Source: an uncultured Collinsella sp. (lineage in GTDB: Bacteria > Actinomycetota > Coriobacteriia > Coriobacteriales > Coriobacteriaceae). Taken from it: a stretch of DNA of 10,361 nucleotides. Numbering within the stretch: position 1 is the first letter of the stretch; each line of letters starts with the position of its first letter. A model generated the notes under the pieces. It was not told the DNA's origin. It ran no database searches and saw only the letters and a program-made list of their open reading frames with translations. The stretch covers positions 1 to 10,361 of the forward strand of contig CAKUGT010000038.1 of the NCBI GenBank assembly GCA_934654795.1, in the 5' to 3' direction. The translations under genes and the position numbers were made by a program. Below, in pieces: positions 1-10,288 of this stretch.

Positions 1-441
1 ACGCAGGGCGGCGCGGCGGCGCATGGTGTGCGCAAAGTCACGATTGATCAGGCCAAGATCGCCAGCCCAGGCACCGCAGAAATTGCAGCGTGTAAACTGC
101 GCCTCGACGGCGGCGCACAGCTCGATCGTGGCATCGCCGTCATAAATAGCCTCTGCACCCCAAGGGGTCGAGAACTCTGCGGCAAGAGCGCCGATGACAT
201 GCCCCATAGCGGCAAGGGTCACTGCCGACACATGTTGCTCGTAGGGCATCGACAGCTCATTGGTGATCAGAATGCCGTCCACGCCACCCGACTGCAGCGC
301 TTCGAGATCGCGCTTGGCGGCATCGATCACGCGCGAAACGCTGCCACCCGGATAATACAGAGGATCGCCAGGCAGCGGCTGCAGATGCAGCATGCCAATG
401 ACCGGTTTCTCGGTCCCAAACATCGAAGCCATAAACGACAT
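1..441 (-). CDS. BtpA/SgcQ-family TIM-barrel protein (3' end outside window)
   Basis: Partial gene: the first 147 codons are present and the reading frame runs off the left edge. My translation opens MSFMASMFGTEKPVIGML, followed by HLQPLPGDP, LYYPGGS and GGVDGILITNELSMPY. The family signature VIGMLHL(x)PLPG(D/S)P plus the GVDGI-(x)-NE strand is typical of BtpA proteins, which include SgcQ of the E. coli sgc sugar cluster. They are predicted TIM-barrel proteins of uncertain biochemistry, named for a cyanobacterial photosystem I phenotype but common in sugar and nucleoside gene clusters. The start at 441 is set by AAGGAG seven bases upstream; later Met codons (residues 4 and 7) lack a site. It is the last visible gene of the operon, 41 bases after the YjbQ gene. 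A Cys-rich patch (TRCNFCGAW, around residue 119) sits where relatives usually read RVN-(x)-(x)-(x)-GA, so the pocket may be altered. Family call is firm; function is unknown. Confidence 0.85.
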   Translation of the reverse strand, partial: MSFMASMFGTEKPVIGMLHLQPLPGDPLYYPGGSVSRVIDAAKRDLEALQSGGVDGILITNELSMPYEQHVSAVTLAAMGHVIGALAAEFSTPWGAEAIYDGDATIELCAAVEAQFTRCNFCGAWAGDLGLINRDFAHTMRRRAALR

Positions 442-482
442 GGTCAATCTCCTTTAGCTCACCGATTCGCAGGCATCAGCTA

Positions 483-911
483 CTACTCGCCCAGCACCTC
501 AACGTACACTTTTCGCTTCTGAGGCCCATCGAACTCCGCAAGGTAGATGTTCTGGGCCCCGCCACATACAATGTGACCGTCTTGAACGGGGAAGAAGCAG
601 CTATTGCCGCAAATCATGCTCTTGATATGGCCACAGGAGTTATTGCCCGTGGCGCCATAGCTCGGCAAGAAATGCGCATGCGCATAGGGGGCATCGGGCG
701 GGGCAATGCGATCGAGCGTCTCCATGAGATCGGTCTCCACGCACGGAAGCCCCTCGTTCACCACGATACCGCAAGTCGTATGCGACAAAATAATCGCTGC
801 CAGTCCATCGGTCACCGCACTACGCTCGATGGCGGCATGCACATCTTCTGTGATGTCGATGAACTGGTCGGGCGCCGTCGATAGATAGCTCAATGTCTCG
901 AGTGTCACCAT
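483..911 (-). CDS. YjbQ / UPF0047 family protein
   Basis: A 142-residue protein covering the whole single-domain UPF0047 (YjbQ) fold, usually about 130-150 residues. Visible family motifs are QFIDIT (17-22), SHTTCGIVVNEG (43-54, with His44 and Glu53), GHIKSMICG (94-102, His95) and the C-terminal block GGAQNIYLAEFDGP ending VEVLGE. E. coli YjbQ has a weak thiamine-phosphate synthase activity, but the physiological role of the family is unsettled. I prefer the ATG at 911: it follows GGTGAT at seven bases and sits one base after the TGA of the upstream amidohydrolase. ATG at 920 or GTG at 923 would also be in frame, overlapping that gene and lying on top of the Shine-Dalgarno. The tight junction implies translational coupling. 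Unusual here are the loop before His95, which reads LPSYGATGNNSCG rather than the common Asp-rich DDGNGH-like sequence, and five Cys residues. Placement inside a catabolic operon suggests a pathway role rather than thiamine synthesis, but that is inference. Confidence 0.87.
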   Translation of the reverse strand: MVTLETLSYLSTAPDQFIDITEDVHAAIERSAVTDGLAAIILSHTTCGIVVNEGLPCVETDLMETLDRIAPPDAPYAHAHFLPSYGATGNNSCGHIKSMICGNSCFFPVQDGHIVCGGAQNIYLAEFDGPQKRKVYVEVLGE

Positions 912-912
912 G

Positions 913-1773
913 TCACTCATCACCTTTCAGAAAACGCAGCGCCGTGCCGGAATACAGATTCTCCCGCGTCTCATCGCGCATGGGCACAGCATCAAGCGCC
1001 CGCTTGAGCTTGAAGGCGCGGAAGCGTGGCGTATTGCTGGCAAACATCACCTGATGCGACAGGGCCCGCTCATACCACAGCGGTCCCATATCGACGGTGA
1101 AGAGCCGCTGCATCATCTCTTCGGGCGAATCGATATAGGTAATAGAGGTATCCGTATAGCAATTGGGATACTTGAGCAGCATCGCCACGGTTTCGCGCAC
1201 CCAGGGCCAGCCAAAGTGAGTCAGGTTAAAGCGCACATCCGGATGCGTTGCGATGGTGTGCTCAAACGCAAGCGGGTGGCTTCGTGAAAGCTCCGCACCC
1301 GGCTCCCAGGACATACCGGCATGAAAAACCACCGGCTTGTTGTAGCGCTCACAGAGCTTGTAGAGCGGCTCGGCAACGGCATCGTCGGGCGCAAAACCCT
1401 GCTTTGCCGGATGCAGGCAGAGCCCCTTGGCCCCCAGCTCGGTAAAGGCTCGCTCCAGTTCATCGGCGGCGCCACTCACTTGCGGGTCCACGCTCGCAAA
1501 TCCCCATAGACGATCGGGGTGCGCAGCAACAAGCGCGGCAACCTGGTCGTTGGTGCCAAAGTGCCCGCCGCACGCCGTGGTCACATCGAGCGGCATGAGC
1601 ACGCTTTTCCGTACATCGCAGACATCCATCTCGGCCACGAGCTCATCCCAGTCCATGGGGCCCATGTGCCCCATGCCAAACTCACGCTCCCAAAAACCAA
1701 AGCCGTCTGGCTCGTCGCCTGGCGTATAGATCTCGCCGTAGAGCATGGGCTGGACCAGCATATCGATTACCAT
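913..1773 (-). CDS. Amidohydrolase family (COG2159-like) TIM-barrel protein with altered metal site
   Basis: A 286-residue protein with the order of elements of Amidohydro_2 (COG2159) enzymes: an N-terminal VID strand, GFASVDP (91-97), GAKGLCLHP (114-122), VVFHAG (148-153), NLTHFGWPW (183-191), a CYTDTS strand (205-210) and MFASNTPRF (243-251), then the typical ENLYSGTALRFL ending. Members hydrolyse or decarboxylate small carboxylic substrates. The second and third metal-ligand regions are present (His151, His186). The canonical His-x-His after the first Asp reads Leu6-Val-Gln8, and the Asp of the GSD motif is Asn247. Catalysis is therefore either metal-independent, differently liganded, or lost. 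The start at 1773 has AAGGAG with a six-base spacer. It follows the second PfkB kinase by 27 bases, and its TGA stop lies one base before the YjbQ start. A substrate cannot be named; a lactonase, hydrolase or non-catalytic role are all possible. Confidence 0.83.
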   Translation of the reverse strand: MVIDMLVQPMLYGEIYTPGDEPDGFGFWEREFGMGHMGPMDWDELVAEMDVCDVRKSVLMPLDVTTACGGHFGTNDQVAALVAAHPDRLWGFASVDPQVSGAADELERAFTELGAKGLCLHPAKQGFAPDDAVAEPLYKLCERYNKPVVFHAGMSWEPGAELSRSHPLAFEHTIATHPDVRFNLTHFGWPWVRETVAMLLKYPNCYTDTSITYIDSPEEMMQRLFTVDMGPLWYERALSHQVMFASNTPRFRAFKLKRALDAVPMRDETRENLYSGTALRFLKGDE

Positions 1774-1800
1774 CTTGCACTCCTTTCCAGGTGTTTGTTC

Positions 1801-2601
1801 CTAGTACGGTTCGAACGACCCAATGACTCGGGACGAAAGCTCGGCACCGGCACGCATGCATGCCGGCACGTCAAGCCCATCCAGTACACCCTTGGTGAAT
1901 CCGGCGATATACGAGTCGCCGGCGCCCACGGTATTGACGACCTTCTCGGCCGGCACGATCCCACATTCATAGAAGCGCTCACCGTCATAGGCGATGCTCC
2001 CCTTCTCGCCAAGCGTGGCGACCGCCACGCGCGGACCCAGCTCCTGCACATGGCGCACCCAGTCGCGCAGCTCCGCACTATCCTCCTCAAACGACATAAA
2101 GGCATAGTCCACGTAAGGAAAATGGCTCTCACAGGTGTATTCGGGATCCTGACTAAACACCGAAAAGTCCATGACAACGGTCTTGCCTGCCTCGTGCCAT
2201 TCGGGCAGCAGGTCTAAGCAGTTTCCAAACAGGTCGGTATGGATGACATCGTGCTCCAGGATAAATGCCCGGTCACCATCGTTTGGCCGGTACGTTTCCA
2301 TAACACCGTCAATCGCCTCGAGATGTACGCGGTCGACGCCGTCCTTCAACGCCATGAGCATCACCGAGGTATCGCCGTCCTCCACGCGAAGATGCGAGAT
2401 GTCGAACCCCTCGGCAGCCAGCGCCTCGCGCATCTTGTCTCCGTACTCGTCCTTTCCGACAACCGACACCGCAGATACCGATACGCCCATTCGCGCCAGA
2501 TGGATACCCCAGTCGATGCCATTGCCAGTCGGATAGAACACACCGATGTTTTGATACACGTCCGCACAGCAGAAGCCAGCTGCGCATGCTTTGATATCCA
2601 T
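1801..2601 (-). CDS. PfkB-family sugar kinase, FrlD-like (second, divergent copy)
   Basis: A 266-residue ribokinase/PfkB-family kinase that would phosphorylate a sugar hydroxyl with ATP in the cytosol. Motifs in order: N-terminal CCADVYQ (11-17), TGNGIDW (25-31) in the sugar-binding segment, VGKDEYGDKM (48-57), DGDRAFILEHDVIHTDLFGN (108-127), VMDFSVFS (143-150), ATLGEKGSIAYDG (195-207) and the catalytic NTVGAGDSYIAGF (223-235), with Asp229 the expected catalytic base. Overall it tracks E. coli FrlD (fructoselysine 6-kinase) and the neighbouring kinase, but the usual PGGNAVN segment is PTGNGID, so sugar recognition probably differs. I chose ATG 2601 because GGAGAAG lies about five bases upstream; a TTG at 2616 is in frame but has no site. 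A terminator-like hairpin sits seven bases upstream of the Shine-Dalgarno. The stop is followed 27 bases later by the amidohydrolase. Kinase fold is confident; substrate is unknown. Confidence 0.88.
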   Translation of the reverse strand: MDIKACAAGFCCADVYQNIGVFYPTGNGIDWGIHLARMGVSVSAVSVVGKDEYGDKMREALAAEGFDISHLRVEDGDTSVMLMALKDGVDRVHLEAIDGVMETYRPNDGDRAFILEHDVIHTDLFGNCLDLLPEWHEAGKTVVMDFSVFSQDPEYTCESHFPYVDYAFMSFEEDSAELRDWVRHVQELGPRVAVATLGEKGSIAYDGERFYECGIVPAEKVVNTVGAGDSYIAGFTKGVLDGLDVPACMRAGAELSSRVIGSFEPY

Positions 2602-2618
2602 AGTCTTCTCCAGCAATC

Positions 2619-2647
2619 AAAAAGGGGCCCACCCAAGGCGAGCCCCT
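2619..2647 (-). terminator. Intra-operon terminator-like hairpin
   Basis: Read on the minus strand the sequence is AGGGGCTCGC, loop CTTGG, GTGGGCCCCT, then T4 after the paired T. The stem is 10 bp with two G-U wobbles and has the form of an intrinsic terminator. It lies in the 118-base gap between the two kinase genes, just before the Shine-Dalgarno of the second. It could lower expression of the distal genes, act as an attenuator, or define a processed mRNA end. I see no convincing promoter between it and the upstream gene. Confidence 0.7.
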
Positions 2648-2719
2648 ATCCGAATTCCGATGTAATCTCGCGTCAGTCAGCCAAGGCTTCAGCCCCAAGC
2701 CGCCCAGCGCTTTCTTAGG

Positions 2720-3583
2720 CTACTCGGCGATCGGAGCTCCGTGGCCCCAGGAGCCTTCCATGCCGCATACGGTCGAGGCAAATCCAGCCGCAAAATCGAG
2801 CGCACGCTCAATGGCCTCAGGTCCGTCCTCGCCGCGCTTGGCGGAATCGAGGTAGCACATCAGGAATGAAGTCAGGAACGAGTCGCCGGCTCCCATGGTG
2901 TCCTTCATGTCCGTTACGGGCTTTGCCAGCTGGCGATAGTAGCGCTCGCCGTCATAGGCGATGCAGCCCTCGGCGCCCGCCGTCGCAGACACAAAGCGCG
3001 GACCCAGGCTCTTCACCCAGGCGAGGCGCTCGCGAATCTCATCCTCGCTCGCAGCGTCCGCGGCGCTAAAGAAGGCGAAGTCGACAAACGGGGCAATCTG
3101 CTCATAGTATTCATCGGTGGAATCGTCCGAGAAGTCAAACGATACGGTGATGCCCGCAGCCTTCAGCTTGGGGAGCTCGCGCTCGGTAAAGCAGTAGTTG
3201 CCCGAGTGGACTACGTCGAACTGCTTCATGTATGCCAGATCAAAGCGATCGAGCACATAGCGCGCATCGCCACGGATGCCGCCCTCATTGGAGCCGAGGA
3301 ATACGCGGTCGCCATCGACCACGGTCACACGCGCCGCGCCATTCTCGCCAATAAGCTGCTCGCACTTAGCGAGCTCAATGCCCTCGTCCTCAAGACTTGC
3401 AATCACATGCTCGGCAGCGGCGTCGTTGCCAAAGATGCCCATATATGCAGAGCGCGCAGCACCGCACTTCTTGGCGTAAACGGCAAAATTCACCGCATTG
3501 CCGCCGGGATACATGGTATGGATATGCTCATAGCGATCGACGACGTTGTCACCAAACCCGAGCGCGTTAACGTTAAAAGCCAT
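2720..3583 (-). CDS. PfkB-family kinase, fructoselysine 6-kinase (FrlD)-like
   Basis: A 287-residue ribokinase/PfkB-family kinase. E. coli FrlD phosphorylates fructoselysine at O6 using ATP, and this protein carries the same sequence pattern: GDNVVDRY (11-18), MYPGGNAVNFAVYAKKCG (24-41), FGNDAAAEHV (51-60), GDRVFLGSNEGGI (91-103), FDVVHSG (122-128), VSFDFSDD (147-154) and the ATP and catalytic motif DTMGAGDSFLTSF (228-240), with Asp234 the expected base. It ends in a GSWGHG-like tail reminiscent of the FrlD HGAW end. Size and motif spacing are normal. ATG 3583 is supported by GGAAGGA eight bases upstream, and that site overlaps the stop of the SIS-domain gene 14 bases away, so coupling is likely. 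Adjacent FrlB- and FrlC-like genes support an Amadori-compound 6-kinase, but a different ketose conjugate is possible. Of the two kinases in the operon this is the closer to FrlD. Confidence 0.9.
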   Translation of the reverse strand: MAFNVNALGFGDNVVDRYEHIHTMYPGGNAVNFAVYAKKCGAARSAYMGIFGNDAAAEHVIASLEDEGIELAKCEQLIGENGAARVTVVDGDRVFLGSNEGGIRGDARYVLDRFDLAYMKQFDVVHSGNYCFTERELPKLKAAGITVSFDFSDDSTDEYYEQIAPFVDFAFFSAADAASEDEIRERLAWVKSLGPRFVSATAGAEGCIAYDGERYYRQLAKPVTDMKDTMGAGDSFLTSFLMCYLDSAKRGEDGPEAIERALDFAAGFASTVCGMEGSWGHGAPIAE

Positions 3584-3597
3584 GGTATCTATCCTTC

Positions 3598-4566
3598 CTA
3601 GTACTCAACAACGCCCATGTAGCGGCGGAAGTCGGGGTCGTGATCGAACACCTTGCCGCGCGCTGCACGCAGCTCGCAGTTCATAGCGTAGAACAGCACC
3701 GGATCCAGATAAGCACGAACGCTCGCCGGCACGGCCTCCATACCGTACTCCTTGGCATCAAGCACCATCAGCGTGTCGGTATGGGTCTCGAGGAACGCCA
3801 GGGCGCGCTCGTCCATAGGACGGCACTCGCTCGAGCCCATCTGCAAGAAGTAGAAGACGCCATCCTGGGTAGCCTCAAAGGGGCCATGGAAGTACTCGGC
3901 AGAGTGGATATAGCTGCAGTGCTGCCACTGCATCTCCATGAGCGAGCAGATGGCGAAGCCATACGTCTGGCTAAAGTTGGGACCGCTGCCCAGGATATAG
4001 AAGAACTCATGCTCCTGGCAAAGCTTGGCAAAGCGATCGCCCAGCTCGGCATTTACCTTTTCGCGTGCGGGAGGCAAAATCTTATCCATTTCGGCAATAC
4101 CGGCATACATGTCAGCGAGATCGGCGTAGCCCTCCTGCTGGTCGAGCAGCTCGGCCGCGAGCGACAGCGAGATGCCGGCAGGGACTTCGGCCTGCGGAAC
4201 GCCCTCGCCCCACGGGTACACCCAGGTGACCCACTTGCCAGTATCGATCTTGGAACCGGCGTTATCGGTCTGCGCGATCACCGTCGCGCCCGCGGCAAGG
4301 GCAATCTCGCAGCCCTCGACGACCTCGGGGGTATTGCCGCTGTGGCTGCAGGCAATGACCAGAGACTTCTCGCCCAGGCGACGGGGACGCATGATGTCGA
4401 ACTCACGGGCCGTATAGATATACGAGGTGAACGTCGTCGCCTCGCGCTGCAAGAGCTCATGGGCCGGAATCAGATCGATCATGGAGCCGCCGCAGGCAAT
4501 CCAGTAGACGCTGTCGAACTTGCCCTTCTCGGCAATTGCTTCCTTAATCAGATCATGTGCGTTCAT
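3598..4566 (-). CDS. SIS-domain sugar-phosphate deglycase/isomerase, FrlB-like
   Basis: A 322-residue double-SIS-domain protein of the GlmS/FrlB group. FrlB converts fructoselysine 6-phosphate to glucose 6-phosphate and lysine; the related FraB acts on 6-phosphofructose-aspartate. SIS domain 1 holds YWIACGGS (21-28) and IACSHSGNTPEVVEG (71-85), the phosphate-binding Ser/Thr loop. SIS domain 2 holds FYILGSGP (189-196) and YIHSAEYFHGPFEA (219-232). Glu224 and His227 occupy the E-x-x-H-G-P motif that carries the acid/base residues in FrlB and FraB. The C-terminus DFRRYMGVVEY closely resembles the end of E. coli FrlB. ATG 4566 is preferred because AAAGGA lies seven bases upstream; the in-frame ATG at 4614 has no site and would start within an intergenic hairpin. 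It sits between the FrlC-like and FrlD-like genes, as expected for this pathway. Confidence is good for deglycase-type chemistry, less so for the exact amine partner. Confidence 0.9.
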   Translation of the reverse strand: MNAHDLIKEAIAEKGKFDSVYWIACGGSMIDLIPAHELLQREATTFTSYIYTAREFDIMRPRRLGEKSLVIACSHSGNTPEVVEGCEIALAAGATVIAQTDNAGSKIDTGKWVTWVYPWGEGVPQAEVPAGISLSLAAELLDQQEGYADLADMYAGIAEMDKILPPAREKVNAELGDRFAKLCQEHEFFYILGSGPNFSQTYGFAICSLMEMQWQHCSYIHSAEYFHGPFEATQDGVFYFLQMGSSECRPMDERALAFLETHTDTLMVLDAKEYGMEAVPASVRAYLDPVLFYAMNCELRAARGKVFDHDPDFRRYMGVVEY

Positions 4567-4589
4567 GTTTAGTTCCTTTCCAGTTTGGC

Positions 4590-4619
4590 CGGCCACGCAT
4601 GACGTGTCTTGCATGGCCG
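4590..4619 (-). other. Intergenic mRNA hairpin between FrlC-like and FrlB-like genes
   Basis: On the minus strand CGGCCATGC and GCGTGGCCG pair over 9 bp (one G-U) around a 12-base loop. No U-run follows; a T5 run instead lies upstream of the stem, so it does not look like a terminator. A stem in a 66-base operon gap may stabilise or mark a processed end of the mRNA, setting different levels for the SIS gene and those before it. Confidence 0.5.
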
Positions 4620-4632
4620 AGCAAAAACTTAT

Positions 4633-5484
4633 CTAGTCAATCAGATACTTCTCGAAGGCGGCCATGTTCTTGGCATCTGCCGCCGCCGGGTCATCGTAGT
4701 AACGACCGTCCGTGATTTCCTGACCCAACATGCCATCGAAACCATGGGCGTTGAGCGTGGCGACGAAGGCATCCATATCGTGCTTGCCGTCGCCCCAGAC
4801 CAGATGGCCATAGGGGTCGCCATCGATAAAGTGCATCTCGTGGATCGCACCGTCGCCAAATGCGGCAAACCAGTCCTCGAGCGACTCACCAGCAACACCC
4901 ATTGCGGTCGTATCGACCATAGGCTGCAGATACGGACTCGCGACCTCATCGATCATGCGCTTGGCATCGGCGACGGTCGTCACAAGGTTGCTCTCCTCGG
5001 GACGCAGGCTCTCCATCGTTAGCACCAGACCGTGCTCGCCGGCATACTCCGCCAAGATGGATAGGTGCTCGCGGCTGCGCTTCCACGCCTCCTCGCGATC
5101 CTCGTCCCAGTCACCCCAACCCGAGTTTACGGACATGCGGTCGCATCCCAGCACCTCGGCAAGCTCGATGCCATGCTTGAAATACGCCAGGCTCCGCTGC
5201 TCGTGAAGCGGCTTACGGGCGCAATACTGCCATGGATAGACCACGTTCTCGGGACAGAGCGTCCGATAGCGCAGACCGCGGTCGGCGGCCTTTTTCGCCA
5301 GAGCCTCGGCCTCATAATACCCAGTGTGATCGAGCGTCACATGGGGCTCGGCGCACCACAGCTCGATGGACTCAAAGCCCAGGCGCTGTTGCGTATCCAA
5401 AAAATAGTCGAGCGACCACATGATGTAGTGGATGTTCATGCCCGCAATCTGCTCGCGTCGCAGCGTCGGTTTGGTTTCAGGCAT
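4633..5484 (-). CDS. Sugar phosphate isomerase/epimerase (TIM barrel), FrlC-like
   Basis: A 283-residue xylose-isomerase-like TIM-barrel protein. E. coli FrlC interconverts fructoselysine and its 3-epimer psicoselysine. Matching elements are LGFESIELWCAEPHV (35-49), LCPENVVYPWQY (76-87), TMESLRPEESNLV (156-168), PMVDTTAM (188-195), HEMHFIDGD (215-223), HLVWGDGKHDM (227-237) and FDGMLGQEIT (249-258). Glu158, Asp191, His218 and Glu256 fit the divalent-metal set of 3-epimerases, so it should be an active metal-dependent epimerase. The PEESN and GDGKHDM blocks particularly resemble FrlC. ATG 5484 has a strong AAGGAGG at six bases. That site lies inside the final codons of the YtcJ-like gene and the two genes are separated by one base, indicating translational coupling. 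The N-terminus is about 15 residues longer than in FrlC. An epimerase for another keto-sugar conjugate is the main alternative. Confidence 0.88.
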   Translation of the reverse strand: MPETKPTLRREQIAGMNIHYIMWSLDYFLDTQQRLGFESIELWCAEPHVTLDHTGYYEAEALAKKAADRGLRYRTLCPENVVYPWQYCARKPLHEQRSLAYFKHGIELAEVLGCDRMSVNSGWGDWDEDREEAWKRSREHLSILAEYAGEHGLVLTMESLRPEESNLVTTVADAKRMIDEVASPYLQPMVDTTAMGVAGESLEDWFAAFGDGAIHEMHFIDGDPYGHLVWGDGKHDMDAFVATLNAHGFDGMLGQEITDGRYYDDPAAADAKNMAAFEKYLID

Positions 5485-5485
5485 G

Positions 5486-7069
5486 CTAAACCTCCTTATT
5501 TCGGTCGAACACGATACGTCCGTCCGACATGGTCATATCAACGGCAAGGTCACAAGCATCGTGGCAGTCAAGGTCAAACACATCGCGATCGAGCACGCAG
5601 ATGTCGGCAAGCTTACCGGCCTCGAGCGTTCCCAGCTCATCCTCGCGCATCAGGTCATATGCGCCCCCTGCCGTCCATGCACGAAGGAGCTCGGCAAGCG
5701 TCAGCGTATTGCCCTCATTCACGGGCAAACCGTCGGCAAAATAACCACCGCACGCGCTGTAGATTGATTCGCCCAGACTCGGAATCAAGAGCGGAAGGTC
5801 GGTGCCACAGCACACCGTACATCCCGCGTCTTCCATGCCGCGACGGTTCCAGCTGTGCTGCAGTCGGACCTCGCCGATCTGCCGACGCATCATCGACAGG
5901 CAGTCCTCGCGCTTATCGAGCGTGAGGATCTGGGGGTAGACCTCGCAGATTCCGCCCAGCTTGCCAAAAAGGGCAAGGTCTTCCGGATCAGAGTTCTCGA
6001 GGTCGGTGATCGCGTGGCGTCGAAGCATGGCTCCGTGCTCATCTCGCGGCAGCGAGGCATACAGCGCAACGGTGTGGCGAACGGCGCCGTCGCCCTGACA
6101 ATGAAGCGAGTAACGGAAGCCCTCGGCATCAATCGCGCGCAGCTCGTCCTCAATCAAACCCCACTCGGGCTCCTCGACAACCGTCTTGCCGGCAGCCCCC
6201 GCATCGGCCGTCTCCTCATAAGGGTCGATCATCTCGGCAAGCCCCACCCATACGCCGCGATCGGTCATACGGTTGAAGCCCGAGAAACGAACAAACGGTC
6301 CCTGGAAGCGATCACGCGCCGCACGGGCATAGGGCAGATTCGCCCCGGCGCCCACCGGCTGTGACATCATGGAGACGCGAACCGTCAGCTCGCCAGATTC
6401 CTCACGGCGCGCCATCTCATCGGCAAATCCGTAATAGTCATCGAAGGCCATCTCTTTGATAGCCGTGACACCGCGAGCGTTCAGCATCGCCATGTAATCC
6501 GAATACCCGGCGCGCACCTCGGGAAGCGCCAAGAAGTCCCGCATCATACGCCAGATCTTCTCGGCATAGCAGGCCTCGGGCGTAAAACCATAGCGCTCGC
6601 TGGCGGCGGCGTTGAGAACGCACGTCTCGGCACCCGGGGTAAAGCAGACAACGGGAATATCTCCGAAGGCGCCGCCGAGCGCTGCCGCCGTTTTTTCATT
6701 CTCAATGTCTTCGGCGAGCGACGCAGGAAGGTCGTGCCCAAAGGCGGCGGCGCAATCGAGGTGGGCATCCTTCCACAACTGCAGAAGCACTACCACTTCG
6801 TCGACGTCAGAGGCTTCGGATAAGTCGGCCCCCAGGCTCCGCAACGCCCAGCCCGTATAGAACGTATGCACATCGACCAGGCCAGGCATGACAGTCCTGT
6901 CGCCACAATCGATCGCCTCATCCGCCTGGGCGAGAAACGAGCCTGCCTCGCCAGCGCCACCGACGGCTTCAATCCGATTGCCGCGTACCGCGACAAAACC
7001 TTCAAACGGCTGGTCTTCCGTACCGGTGAAGACGCTCTTAGACGTCAGCACCGTCAAACGATCGGACAT
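5486..7069 (-). CDS. YtcJ-like amidohydrolase (COG1574) with incomplete HxH motif
   Basis: A 527-residue amidohydrolase of the YtcJ / N-substituted formamide deformylase type, usually about 520-560 residues. An N-terminal beta-sandwich start (SVFTGTEDQPFEGFVAVRGNRI split over 12-33) leads to MPGLVDVHTFYTGW (61-74), SLHCQGDGAVRHT (321-333), RRHAITDLENSDPEDL (350-365), TVCCGTDLPLLIPSL (418-432) and the C-terminal LEAGKLADICVLDRD (482-496). Members hydrolyse C-N bonds of amides or formamides with Zn in a TIM barrel. His68, His323, His352 and Asp424 are present, but the second His of the first H-x-H motif is Phe70, so the metal centre may be mononuclear or re-liganded. ATG 7069 is chosen for AAGGAGG five bases upstream, which overlaps the TAA of the transporter gene ten bases away. 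The longer frame to 7204 would lie inside that gene. In this operon it may release an acyl or peptide part from the imported compound; this is inference. Confidence 0.86.
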   Translation of the reverse strand: MSDRLTVLTSKSVFTGTEDQPFEGFVAVRGNRIEAVGGAGEAGSFLAQADEAIDCGDRTVMPGLVDVHTFYTGWALRSLGADLSEASDVDEVVVLLQLWKDAHLDCAAAFGHDLPASLAEDIENEKTAAALGGAFGDIPVVCFTPGAETCVLNAAASERYGFTPEACYAEKIWRMMRDFLALPEVRAGYSDYMAMLNARGVTAIKEMAFDDYYGFADEMARREESGELTVRVSMMSQPVGAGANLPYARAARDRFQGPFVRFSGFNRMTDRGVWVGLAEMIDPYEETADAGAAGKTVVEEPEWGLIEDELRAIDAEGFRYSLHCQGDGAVRHTVALYASLPRDEHGAMLRRHAITDLENSDPEDLALFGKLGGICEVYPQILTLDKREDCLSMMRRQIGEVRLQHSWNRRGMEDAGCTVCCGTDLPLLIPSLGESIYSACGGYFADGLPVNEGNTLTLAELLRAWTAGGAYDLMREDELGTLEAGKLADICVLDRDVFDLDCHDACDLAVDMTMSDGRIVFDRNKEV

Positions 7070-7079
7070 CGCGACCTCC

Positions 7080-8543
7080 TTACGCCGGAAGCATGCCGGA
7101 GATGGCGGTAATGACCAAGCCAAACACGACCATAAAGATGAAGAACTTCCAAATGGTCTTCCACCATTGGCCAAACGAAATCTTTGCCACGGCAAGGCCG
7201 GCAACCGTCATGCCCGCCGTAGGGCTGATAGTGTTGATGGTTTGGTTGGCAAACTGGAGCGCGGTGACGGCAGCCTCGGGATTGAGGCCCATGAGCTCGG
7301 TCAGGGGACCCATAACGGGCATGGTGAGCGCCGCCAGGCCAGAGCTCGAGGGAACAAGCAGGGAGAGCAGGCCAAGAACGACGTACATAAACGTGGTGTA
7401 CACGGCGGCCGGCGCTCCGGCGAGTGCGGTGGCAAGTGCCTGGAGGATGGTGTCGATGATCATGCCGCCCTCGGCGATGACCAGAATGCCGCGAGCAATA
7501 CCGATAACGATGGCGGCGTACGCAAAGTCGGCAAGGCCCTTAACGAACTCCTCGGCGATCGTCTGCTGATCAAGACCGCCCAGGATGCCGGCAAGCAGGC
7601 CCATACCAAGGAACACGGCGGAAATCTCATTCATGTACCAGCCCTGGGTAACAAGGCCCCAGACGATAATACCCATACCGCAAGCGAAATCGATCAGTAC
7701 GAGCTTCTGGCGGGTGGTGAACTCCTCCTCGATGGAAGCGTCGGTCACGGAGAACTCAACGCGCTTGAGCTTGTCGTCCTCATACGTAATGGACGACTCG
7801 GGGTTTTTCTTTACGCGCATGGCATAGCGCATGGCCCATGCGATACCGACGGCGGTGAAGATAACCCAAGAAACGGCACGCAGCCACAGCTGCGGATTGC
7901 CCTCGATACCAATGATGCCCTGGGCGATCAAAACGTTAAACGGGTCAATGGTCGAGGCGCAGTATCCCAGGTTAGGACCGAGGAAGCAGATGATAAATGC
8001 CGTCATCGAGTCATAGCCGATGCCCATCATGATGGGAATGAAGATGGCGTAGAACGGCAGGGCTTCCTCAGACATACCAAACGTCGTGCCGCAGATGGAC
8101 AGCAAGGTCATCGTGATGGGAATGATGAGGATGTCCTTATTCTTGAGCTTTTTAATCACGCGGCTCATGCCGGCATTCAACGCATTGGTCTTGGTGATGA
8201 TTGCAAACGAACCACCAATCAGCAGGACGAACGCGACAACGTCGGCCGCCGCCTGGATACCCTCGGTGGGCGCCTGCAAAACCGCAAAGATATCCTGACC
8301 CAGGTTGATGGTCTCACCGGTCTCGGAATCGGTATAGTTCTTATCGACCTGTTCATAGGTTCCGGCAACGGCGACTTCGCGCTCGCCCGCCGCCGTCGAG
8401 ATTGTCTTGCGCTGATACTGGCCAGAGGGAACGATCCAGGTCAGGACCGCAAAGACAACGATCAGCAAGAACATGATCGTATAGACGTGCGGTAATTTGA
8501 ATTTGAAACGTCTGTTTGTCTTCTTCGCCTTCGTATCTGACAT
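7080..8543 (-). CDS. YfcC-family membrane carrier (DcuC/YfcC superfamily)
   Basis: A 487-residue integral membrane protein, normal for the YfcC family of the ion-transporter superfamily. After a short basic cytosolic N-terminus (MSDTKAKKTNRRFKFKLPHVYTI, in parts) a first membrane segment ends at FAVLTWIVPSGQY (31-43), the standard YfcC start. A roughly 60-residue outside loop follows, then about ten further hydrophobic spans. Family motifs are GTTFGMSEEALPFY (152-165), LGYCASTIDPFNVLIAQ (192-208) and, near the C-terminus, VPSSSGLAALTMPVMGPL with NTISPTAGM. Substrates of YfcC proteins are poorly known; suggestions include dicarboxylates, basic amino acids and peptides. ATG 8543 has GGAGG five bases upstream. 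It is the first gene of the operon, directly after the promoter region, so it is the likely importer for the pathway's substrate, replacing the FrlA-type permease or ABC system of known fructoselysine loci. A counter-exporter of the released amine is an alternative. Confidence 0.88.
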   Translation of the reverse strand: MSDTKAKKTNRRFKFKLPHVYTIMFLLIVVFAVLTWIVPSGQYQRKTISTAAGEREVAVAGTYEQVDKNYTDSETGETINLGQDIFAVLQAPTEGIQAAADVVAFVLLIGGSFAIITKTNALNAGMSRVIKKLKNKDILIIPITMTLLSICGTTFGMSEEALPFYAIFIPIMMGIGYDSMTAFIICFLGPNLGYCASTIDPFNVLIAQGIIGIEGNPQLWLRAVSWVIFTAVGIAWAMRYAMRVKKNPESSITYEDDKLKRVEFSVTDASIEEEFTTRQKLVLIDFACGMGIIVWGLVTQGWYMNEISAVFLGMGLLAGILGGLDQQTIAEEFVKGLADFAYAAIVIGIARGILVIAEGGMIIDTILQALATALAGAPAAVYTTFMYVVLGLLSLLVPSSSGLAALTMPVMGPLTELMGLNPEAAVTALQFANQTINTISPTAGMTVAGLAVAKISFGQWWKTIWKFFIFMVVFGLVITAISGMLPA

Positions 8544-8581: not shown

Positions 8582-8602
8582 CTTTAACGTTCGCGCAATG
8601 CA

Positions 8603-8618
8603 AACGTCCTATGACGTT
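8603..8618 (-). promoter_or_regulatory. Candidate operator: perfect inverted repeat at the predicted start of transcription
   Basis: AACGTC and GACGTT are perfect 6-bp arms around ATAG. The element would cover roughly -2 to +14 of the operon promoter, an ideal repressor position. The GntR/UTRA regulator encoded just upstream is the obvious candidate to bind it. It is not an exact match to the GTxTAxAC core known for several HutC-type regulators, so the assignment is inference. Confidence 0.55.
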
Positions 8619-8763: not shown

Positions 8764-9507
8764 CTAGATATCAAAAACGTAGCGCGATCCTACAATCCGC
8801 TGTCGGCCGATGATAAACGGCCGTTGCTGCTCGTCATAGAAATATGCCTCCATATAAAACAGAGGCTCTCCCGTGGGAACGGACAGCAGCCGGGCGACTT
8901 CGGGTGACGCACACGCGATCTCAAGCGTGCACGGCTCGGTGAGGGCAGGCCCGCGACCCGTCCGTTCGCGCACGACCTCGAAAATTGATTGATCGGTAAG
9001 GTCCGCCTTCGCCAAAAAGGCGTTGTCTTCATAAACGTACGTGTTGTTCTCGAGCATCACGGGGATGCCATCGGCGGTGCGCACGCGTTCAATGCAGATC
9101 AGCTCCGACCCAACGGGAACGCCAAAAAACTGCGCTTCGGCAGCATCGGCCGGCAACACTTTTCTTGAGACAATACGCGCCCCGGGCTCCATCTCGTTGA
9201 CACGACAGGCGTCCGAAAAGCTCTGAACGTCGTCCTTCTGGCGGATTTTACGCTTGAGCTTGGGAGCGTTTACAAACGTGCCCCTCCCCTGCTGCTTGGT
9301 AAGGTAGCCCTGCTGGACAAGCTCTTCAATGGCTCGCCGAACGGTAACGCGACCGACTTTGTAGCTTTCGGCCAATTCGAATTCATTTGGTATCCGAGCG
9401 CCCGCCTTATAGGTACCAGAATTGATGTCATTTTTGATGATATCGATAACCTGTTGATATAGCGGGATTGCCGCTTTTCCGTCGGTCAGCCCTTCAGTCG
9501 ATGGCAT
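8764..9507 (-). CDS. GntR-family transcriptional regulator, HutC/FrlR type (UTRA domain)
   Basis: A 247-residue one-component regulator, standard size for the HutC subfamily. Residues about 14-80 form the GntR winged helix-turn-helix: IPLYQQVIDIIKNDI, GARIPNEFELAESYKVGRVTVRRAI and GYLTKQQGRGTFV (shown in pieces). Residues about 95-240 form a UTRA effector domain, with CIERVRTADGIPVMLENNTYV in the middle (in parts) and GRQRIVGSRYVFDI at the end. UTRA domains bind small ligands, often sugar phosphates or amino acid derivatives, and FrlR of fructoselysine loci is of this type. ATG 9507 follows a GGGGAGG site. That site lies in the loop of a hairpin whose 3' arm covers the start codon, suggesting control of its own synthesis. 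It lies upstream of the catabolic operon on the same strand, separated by its own terminator. It probably represses the operon until the substrate or a phosphorylated intermediate appears. Confidence 0.92.
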   Translation of the reverse strand: MPSTEGLTDGKAAIPLYQQVIDIIKNDINSGTYKAGARIPNEFELAESYKVGRVTVRRAIEELVQQGYLTKQQGRGTFVNAPKLKRKIRQKDDVQSFSDACRVNEMEPGARIVSRKVLPADAAEAQFFGVPVGSELICIERVRTADGIPVMLENNTYVYEDNAFLAKADLTDQSIFEVVRERTGRGPALTEPCTLEIACASPEVARLLSVPTGEPLFYMEAYFYDEQQRPFIIGRQRIVGSRYVFDI

Positions 9508-9565: not shown

Positions 9566-10225
9566 CTACGCAAGCTCCAGCAGCTCTGGTAGCTGGTCGA
9601 TAATCTTGTCAGCCGCATCCTGGCTAAAGCCGAAGCGCTCCTCTCGTTTGGCGATCACCGTCAGACCCGCTCGCTTGCCGGCAGTGATGCCGGGCACCGA
9701 GTCCTCGACGCAGCAGCAGCGGTCCGCGGGCAGCCCCAGCAGATCCAGCGCATGCAGGTAAATATCGGGCTCGGGCTTGCTCTCCTTAAACTGCTCGCCG
9801 CTCACCACGTACTCAAAGGCATCCGACAGACCGCACGCATCGAGCACTTCCTCGATGCTGTCCATGGGAGACGAACTGGCCAGCGCCACGCGAACGCCGC
9901 GGCGCGGGAGCTCGCGAATCGTCTCCACGGCGCCCGGATTGATCAAGGTCTGATAATCGCGCGGTCGTTTATGTGCCCATTCATCCCAGCGATTCAATGC
10001 CTCCTCGCCGGTAAAGTGCCCCTTTCCGGCGCGCTCAAACCAATCGACCAGCATATGCAAAAAGAACTGATGCGAGGTACCAACCTGCCCGTTCAGCTCC
10101 TCTTGGGTCAGGTTCAGCCCAAGCTCTTTGGCAAACGCAGCGGTCTCCCCCAGGTAGTAATACTCGGTATCGACGATGACGCCGTCCATGTCAAAGATAA
10201 CGGCGTCGAACGGAAATGCGGACAC
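9566..10225 (-). CDS. HAD-superfamily hydrolase, beta-phosphoglucomutase-like
   Basis: A 219-residue HAD subfamily IA phosphatase or phosphomutase. Motif I is VIFDMDGVIVDTE (9-21; nucleophile Asp12 and acid/base Asp14), the C1 cap spans roughly 22-90, motif II is ALASSSP (114-120; Ser118), motif III is Lys150 in KPEPDIYLHAL, and motif IV is CVEDSVPGI (172-180; Glu174, Asp175). The set is complete, so it should be active on a small phosphorylated metabolite; sugar phosphates are typical for this group. I chose GTG 10225 because GGGAGG lies five bases upstream; the in-frame ATG at 10273 falls before a terminator hairpin and has no site. The stop is 58 bases before gntR with no terminator between, so the two may be co-transcribed. 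It could serve the Amadori pathway by recycling phosphorylated by-products, or be housekeeping. Confidence 0.88.
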   Translation of the reverse strand: MSAFPFDAVIFDMDGVIVDTEYYYLGETAAFAKELGLNLTQEELNGQVGTSHQFFLHMLVDWFERAGKGHFTGEEALNRWDEWAHKRPRDYQTLINPGAVETIRELPRRGVRVALASSSPMDSIEEVLDACGLSDAFEYVVSGEQFKESKPEPDIYLHALDLLGLPADRCCCVEDSVPGITAGKRAGLTVIAKREERFGFSQDAADKIIDQLPELLELA

Positions 10226-10240
10226 GGCACCCTCCCTAAC

Positions 10241-10265
10241 AAAAAGGCGCCCGCAAGCGGACGCC
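10241..10265 (-). terminator. Intrinsic terminator after the Cof-type HAD gene
   Basis: Minus strand: GGCGTCCG, loop CTTG, CGGGCGCC, then T5: an 8-bp stem with one G-U and a stable CUUG loop. It lies 23 bases after the TAG of the partial gene and only three bases before the Shine-Dalgarno of the next one, so the HAD gene depends on read-through or a promoter I cannot see. Confidence 0.82.
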
Positions 10266-10288
10266 CGAACCATGCACTATCGGCGATT

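Follow-up and report, generated by a model that had tools for sequence, protein, structure and literature searches.

The window considered here, the whole 10,361-nt stretch of contig CAKUGT010000038.1 from an uncultured Collinsella sp., carries eleven genes on its minus strand, in the order HAD phosphatase, GntR/UTRA regulator, YfcC carrier, the amidohydrolase AH3, an FrlC-like protein, a SIS-domain deglycase (SIS), the kinase PfkB1, the kinase PfkB2, the amidohydrolase AH2, YjbQ and a partial BtpA. We read this locus as a putative Fra-like operon for alpha-linked fructosamines, with an optional supplement that would act on a second Amadori-derived substrate, and from the sequence comparisons below we would give this reading a probability of about 0.58. 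The genes form two separable modules: a core (GntR-YfcC-AH3-FrlC-SIS-PfkB1) and a five-gene presence/absence cassette (PfkB2-AH2-YjbQ-BtpA and an FGGY kinase, the last lying beyond the window). Gene content, clades, cassette boundaries and the recurrence of the AH2-YjbQ pair in Amadori loci were all observed directly. A first-pass annotation of this DNA had proposed an Amadori-type catabolic operon with an "Frl" core and a substrate other than fructoselysine. The operon type is supported, its gene order is conserved, and a substrate different from fructoselysine is likely; the "Frl" label has to be given up, since SIS falls in the FraB clade (support 1.0) and PfkB1 in the FraD clade (0.945), so that the core is better filed as Fra-like.

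Clade membership and conservation of the core

The features of the window are listed below; start codons were corrected for AH3, SIS and PfkB2.

9566-10273, minus strand: HAD phosphatase
8764-9507, minus strand: GntR/UTRA regulator in a FraR-like position (PF00392 and PF07702)
8586-8608: candidate operator, an imperfect 23-bp palindrome, consensus AACGTTTGCAnnnTGCAAACGTT, with 3 mismatches in the window copy
7080-8543, minus strand: YfcC/DcuC-family carrier, likely an importer (PF03606, 371 bits; YfcC model 333 bits, cut-off 500)
5486-7069, minus strand: AH3, amidohydrolase (Amidohydro_3, PF07969), probably cytosolic
4633-5484, minus strand: FrlC-like sugar 3-epimerase family protein (FrlC model 96.9 bits, cut-off 305)
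3598-4566, minus strand: SIS deglycase of the FraB clade
2720-3583, minus strand: PfkB1, FraD-type kinase
2623-2647, minus strand: GC hairpin with T run between the modules, candidate attenuator or terminator
1801-2601, minus strand: PfkB2 ("FrlD2"), FrlD-clade kinase, first gene of the cassette (FrlD model 262.6 bits, cut-off 247)
913-1773, minus strand: AH2, Amidohydro_2 (PF04909), decarboxylase/hydratase fold branch
483-923, minus strand: YjbQ (UPF0047), divergent low-scoring copy linked to AH2 (TIGR00149, 103.3 bits, cut-off 67.75)
1-447, minus strand: BtpA/SgcQ TIM-barrel protein, partial at the window edge (TIGR00259, 105 bits)

Trees were built on chosen sets of 47 SIS and 42 kinase sequences, the kinases of loci L162, L163 and L165 being left out. 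The Frl comparator was an Enterobacteriaceae locus of the E. coli frlABCDR type (L139), above the FrlA, FrlB and FrlD cut-offs; the Fra comparator was the Enterobacteriaceae island between treF and gor (L130), the setting given for fra in the available text of PMC4072780. The window SIS groups with FraB and with Klebsiella and Enterococcus proteins (support 1.0), next to PDB entry 3eua (0.988), while E. coli-type FrlB stays outside. It shares 37% identity with FraB and 29% with FrlB, and scores 106 bits against the FrlB model, below the cut-off of 430. The presumed catalytic Glu/His pair of FraB (E214/H230) has its counterpart in E211 and H227 of the window protein; entry 3eua is B. subtilis FrlB. 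PfkB1 joins FraD (42% identity, against 33% to FrlD) and reaches 186.7 bits with the FrlD model, short of the cut-off of 247. PfkB2 joins FrlD (support 0.793; 38% identity, against 24% to FraD). The first-pass annotation was right that two kinases are present, but the one it called FrlD-like is the FraD-like PfkB1 and its unspecified "second kinase" is the FrlD-like one.

The remaining core proteins are less close to their namesakes. The FrlC-like protein is 25% identical to E. coli-type FrlC and does not reach the FrlC cut-off. The carrier is 46% identical to its Klebsiella counterpart, and occupies the place of an FrlA APC transporter, which is not in the window. No asparaginase (FraE) was found among the eleven window proteins scanned, its slot being taken by AH3. 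In amidohydrolases, the HxH motif and the strand-8 Asp are metal ligands; AH3 lacks the binuclear HxH motif, HxF standing in its place in 48/48 homologues. H68-x-F70, K205, H352 and D424 were invariant in the same 48, H352 dropping to nearly invariant once Enterococcus plasmid copies were added. The AH3 structure model (pLDDT 92) has dipeptide- and lactam-type hydrolases among its nearest annotated folds, neighbors that are only compatible with glycated-peptide or N-acyl Amadori substrates. No N-terminal hydrophobic stretch was found in AH3 on inspection by eye, and the protein is probably cytosolic.

A SIS alignment scan with one genome per species confirmed 161 loci, the best 80 of which were used, several ending at contig ends. 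In the stretches fetched, 74 of these best 80 contained a window-type SIS; SIS with YfcC, AH3 and PfkB1 occurred in 32, and PfkB2 with AH2 and YjbQ in 20, 14 of them together with the core. Neither gene set was seen in 36 of the 74, many of which represent a short GntR-SIS paralogue. The long gene order recurs in Enorma, an Atopobiaceae metagenome-assembled genome, Olsenella and several Clostridia, so that the order proposed beforehand is conserved in both Coriobacteriia and Clostridia. Furthermore, the set SIS-kinase-AH3-YfcC-GntR is found again in Klebsiella, in Citrobacter and on Enterococcus plasmids.

The window SIS is 98-99% identical to that of eleven Collinsella loci, of which six carry the name C. 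aerofaciens. Synonymous divergence (dS) from the Collinsella strains compared is 0.4-1.5 per gene, which suggests that the window comes from another species of the genus. The ratio of nonsynonymous to synonymous divergence (dN/dS) between close Collinsella loci is low, at 0.009-0.093. The window AH3 and GntR are only 85-87% identical to C. aerofaciens-type loci, against 93-99% for the other genes compared; dS from close Collinsella also peaks at GntR and is high for AH3, a possible sign of recombination or of altered specificity.

Several side observations concern the spread of the core. Of 147 plasmid records matching the AH3 of Klebsiella, 137 come from Enterococcus; two of these loci (L166 and L168, both with SIS-kinase-GntR-AH3-YfcC on Enterococcus plasmids) were inspected together with L167. 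An AH3-type core also lies near IS26 on the Citrobacter freundii plasmid pA-NDM-202212 (L169). Within Collinsella, a SIS paralogue of about 84% identity sits in a GntR-YfcC-(AH3)-FrlC-SIS-PfkB1 locus (L014-L016, L055, L057), and others of 74-78% lie beside GntR with no adjacent kinase called (L017-L031 and others; RecQ upstream in L017). An apparent second PfkB2 in L014, L016, L055 and L057 was discarded as a short partial match covering 7% of the length. One 528-residue protein (P0003) with SIS and AP_endonuc_2 domains is either an FrlC-SIS fusion or an assembly artefact.

The cassette and its AH2-YjbQ pair

All nine genes that the first-pass annotation had placed between positions 1 and 8543 were found on the minus strand in the order claimed, with GntR/UTRA at 8764-9507. 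As a set they need amending: BtpA is partial, an FGGY kinase follows it in Collinsella (L005, L154, L155), Enorma (L012) and L156, where the run ends, and the genes divide into two modules. Among 14 close Collinsella loci (duplicates being possible), the cassette is present in six (the window, L003, L005, L010, L154 and L155; the sequences of L003, L010 and the window end inside it) and missing from eight (L001, L002, L004, L006-L009 and L011). A further close Collinsella genome (G595, locus L159), in which FGGY, BtpA, YjbQ and an incomplete AH2 lie at the end of a contig, was left out of the 14 since its core is not visible. Between L001 and L005, L154 or L155, identity ends at the PfkB1 stop codon and returns about 57-60 bp past the FGGY stop; where L005 has the 4.66-kb PfkB2-AH2-YjbQ-BtpA-FGGY segment, L001 has 255 bp. 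The replacing sequence measures about 255-257 bp in seven of the eight cassette-free loci, and about 100 bp in L011. The full BtpA of L005, next to its FGGY kinase, scores 182 bits with PF03437, and the partial window copy, whose gene ends at the window edge, 105 bits with TIGR00259 (cut-off 153.4). Divergent BtpA genes adjoin GntR in L035, L039, L040, L044, L045, L052, L060, L068 and L069. A Thermus plasmid (L171, 6004-8276) carries BtpA-FGGY with a sugar ATP-binding cassette (ABC) importer and an SDR; thus the pair is also at work in sugar loci outside Amadori catabolism.

From YfcC to BtpA the intergenic gaps, with corrected starts, are 10, 1, 66, 14, 118, 27, -11 and 35 nt. The hairpin at 2623-2647, in the 118-nt gap, is conserved in all six cassette-bearing Collinsella loci; promoter and terminator scans were overall at chance level (8 hairpins found, 8.1 expected), so the argument for it rests on that conservation. 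With a GC hairpin and T run between PfkB1 and PfkB2, a single transcript cannot be taken as given. Thirteen Collinsella loci, the window included, have a 23-bp palindrome some 65 nt ahead of YfcC; with up to 4 mismatches it was not found in the other loci scanned, and there is no copy before PfkB2. GntR lies near the core in the Collinsella, Klebsiella, Citrobacter, Enterococcus and Clostridia loci. The HutC consensus operator is GTnTAnAC; a search for sites of this kind gave two matches upstream of genes in 34 loci, with no pattern, and the candidate was rejected.

AH2 is rare (5/291 sampled Clostridia and 13/246 Coriobacteriia genomes, E <= 1e-40), and YjbQ adjoins it in 18/18 of these genomes. 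Within 10 kb of AH2, an FrlD/FraD-type kinase was found in 15 of the 18, an FrlC-type gene in 14, BtpA in 11, and FGGY and AH3 in 10 each. FrlD-family matches number 0-6 per genome (E <= 1e-25, 20 genomes), so that by simple arithmetic chance co-location within 10 kb would be about 2-3%. The three genomes without such a kinase nearby are G439, G322 and G595 (contig end). Fifteen kinases from AH2-YjbQ loci form a clade, FrlD2 (support 0.88), with no other members in the chosen set and separate from the FrlD also carried by L121, L160, L161 and L164; six positions discriminate 6 FrlD from 15 FrlD2 sequences. A broader rule, that every kinase beside AH2-YjbQ is FrlD2, was dropped owing to L167, L123, L152 and L153.

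Amadori loci that contain the pair include ones with uptake of the FrlA, ABC or phosphotransferase system (PTS) type, across Coriobacteriia, Clostridia and Bacilli. Some examples are a second Caproiciproducens locus (L121: FrlA, FrlB and FrlC at 57, 56 and 58% identity, with accessory genes), Frisingicoccus L122 and Niallia L170 with ABC importers, E. faecium DO plasmid 2 (L167) with an FrlA-type permease, and Enorma L123 with SIS and PTS-like genes, the PTS label being read from the sequence by eye. In L167 (10067-20763), AH3, a short AH2, YjbQ, the permease, FrlD and SIS lie beside a beta-galactosidase, with resistance genes in the region; might this neighborhood serve lactulosyl-lysine use? 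Large Coriobacteriia clusters (L160-L165, L173-L176) combine SIS, FrlC, FrlA-type permease, AH3, FrlD, FrlD2, AH2-YjbQ and FGGY-BtpA, not all in each; L163, the sole cluster scanned for them, also has DHDPS-family and DUF4432 genes. L160-L163 had been considered SIS-free, which was ruled out, as a divergent SIS (28-29% identical to the Enorma PTS-type SIS) and FrlC- and FrlA-type genes lie farther along in all four. Mirror-tree correlations of 0.88-0.945 (22 loci) lack a null model and are given little weight.

The AH2 structure model (pLDDT 89.9) has 3irs and 3cjp as its nearest folds, followed by dihydroxybenzoate decarboxylases and ACMSD. The window protein lacks HxH and the strand-8 Asp, having LxQ and N247; among 38 homologous rows, near-identical strains included, the first His is kept in 25, the second in 33 and the Asp in 5. 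Its Collinsella relatives show LxH (L154, L155) or LxQ (L005). Decay of the gene following loss of HxH was ruled out by a dN/dS of 0.043-0.046 to close Collinsella loci.

YjbQ is found in 55 of the 246 Coriobacteriia genomes. All 13 AH2 genomes carry exactly one copy, beside AH2, at 100.5-112.1 bits; 41 others have a copy at 133.9-167.5 bits, five of them with a second, fragmentary match; and G502 has a partial one (102.7 bits). Six divergent or partial copies (G592, G500, G516, G502, G546 and G510; 29-39% identical to that of the window) have neither AH2 nor Amadori genes around them in the regions retrieved. The proposal that low-scoring YjbQ occurs only with AH2 was dropped in view of these six; thus a low score alone is no marker of Amadori-linked copies, and AH2 adjacency is. 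In a literature search, none of the matches listed connected Amadori catabolism with YjbQ, BtpA or the two amidohydrolases, subscription papers being mostly outside its scope. The thiamine-phosphate synthase activity of YjbQ was reportedly found as a side activity.

Proposed scheme and competing readings

The reactions and substrates of the favored scheme are all inferred. YfcC would import an alpha-linked fructosamine (fructose-aspartate, fructose-asparagine or a close relative), and AH3 would hydrolyze an amide, lactam or peptide bond of the substrate in the cytosol, the role that FraE has in the Salmonella periplasm. The FrlC-like protein would interconvert C3 epimers where needed, PfkB1 would phosphorylate C6, and SIS would split the product into glucose 6-phosphate and the amino acid. 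FrlD2 would phosphorylate the second Amadori-derived substrate, the neighboring AH2 and YjbQ would process the phosphorylated compound, and BtpA and the FGGY kinase would handle the released sugar. A more specific version of this last part, in which FrlD2-AH2-YjbQ forms an SIS-independent route, with YjbQ and AH2 breaking or rearranging the sugar-amine C-N bond and BtpA-FGGY recovering the sugar, is doubtful; if true, the UPF0047/YjbQ family would gain a physiological role from it.

Several observations weigh against the Fra-like core with its Amadori add-on. At 90 positions discriminating FraB from FrlB (4 FraB and 2 FrlB sequences only), the window SIS agrees with FraB at 29 and with FrlB at 14, and departs from both at the remaining 47, so that the pocket for the amino acid may be unlike either one; the Klebsiella SIS group is FraB-like at 47 of these positions and FrlB-like at 8. 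The carrier, of DcuC/YfcC type, lies outside FraA's Dcu family (21% identity). On the cassette side, the first metal motif is gone from the window AH2 (L6, Q8), only 8 of the 18 genomes have SIS in the 10-kb neighborhood of AH2, and the BtpA-FGGY pair also occurs in a plain sugar locus. In G439 and G322, the neighbors of AH2-YjbQ are a different PfkB and a protein of sugar-binding type, and neither FrlD nor FrlB has a match anywhere in the genome; E. faecium L167 pairs it with an FrlD-proper kinase outside the FrlD2 clade, and the PTS-like Enorma locus L123 has it without a kinase.

That the ten or eleven genes act serially in one pathway, on one conjugate such as a glycated peptide or an N-acylated Amadori compound, would agree with the conservation of the whole order across Coriobacteriia and Clostridia, with the common strand and short gaps, and with the lack of a YfcC-type palindrome before PfkB2. 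We nonetheless consider it unlikely, given that 8/14 close Collinsella loci have the core without the cassette, that AH2-YjbQ is found again, usually together with FrlD2, alongside different transporters and different SIS proteins, and that the two kinases come from two clades. The optional presence of the cassette within Collinsella and its independence of transporter and SIS type would also suit a repair or detoxification add-on clearing dead-end phosphorylated by-products, regardless of the amino acid or transporter involved; in Salmonella fraB mutants, accumulated 6-phosphofructose-aspartate is toxic, according to the available sections of PMC12755824. Such a role is improbable too, as a dedicated kinase and an FGGY kinase point to substrate use rather than clean-up, and eight core loci manage without the cassette. 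Lower still do we place an ordinary fructoselysine operon with unrelated extra genes: the FrlC-like gene, the PfkB2 score above the FrlD cut-off and the "fructoselysine 6-kinase" annotation of Enterococcus and Citrobacter core-locus kinases speak for it, but the trees, with SIS and PfkB1 outside E. coli-type FrlB and FrlD, disfavor it, no FrlA-type transporter is found in the window, and the extra genes recur together. That annotation calls for caution in any case, as it spans at least the FrlD, FraD-type and FrlD2 enzymes.

Amadori compounds occur commonly in food that has been heated or dried, and the ability to use them influences competition in the gut, Salmonella's included. The core suggests that common gut commensals may use alpha-linked fructosamines without FraE. 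The cassette links to Amadori catabolism three poorly understood groups, namely a divergent Amidohydro_2 subgroup, a divergent YjbQ and BtpA, and the natural occurrence of core-only and core-plus-cassette strains makes the function of these families testable.

Comparison with known systems

The E. coli-type frlABCDR locus (fructoselysine/psicoselysine; L139) has, like the window, a GntR regulator and enzymes of the FrlC, SIS and PfkB families, and the window PfkB2 falls in the FrlD clade. The frl locus differs in its APC transporter FrlA and in the distance of FrlB from SIS (29%) and of FrlD from PfkB1 (33%), and no match to AH3, AH2, YjbQ, BtpA or FGGY was found in the 15 kb examined there. 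Salmonella gfr and F. prausnitzii operons, which catabolize Amadori compounds via PTS uptake (PMC12136445, as far as its text was available), differ from the window in that uptake and in having neither YfcC nor AH3. The window YjbQ belongs to the family annotated as "secondary thiamine-phosphate synthase" but is divergent compared with typical Coriobacteriia copies.

The Klebsiella, Citrobacter and Enterococcus loci share five core families with the window (SIS, kinase, AH3, YfcC and GntR); they differ in gene order and in their AH3 (25-33% identical), and FrlC and the cassette were not seen beside their core. The core of Klebsiella or Clostridium may already have been described in a 2018 survey of species that use fructose-asparagine. 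In Salmonella, FraB and FraD act on alpha-linked fructose-aspartate (available portions of PMC9609667 and PMC12755824). The fra locus (fraR, fraBDAE), as described in the accessible text of PMC4072780 and PMC12755824, has in common with the window a GntR regulator, a FraB-clade SIS, a FraD-clade kinase and a dicarboxylate-type carrier, whereas the window has YfcC for FraA, AH3 for the periplasmic asparaginase FraE, an extra FrlC-like gene and the five-gene cassette.

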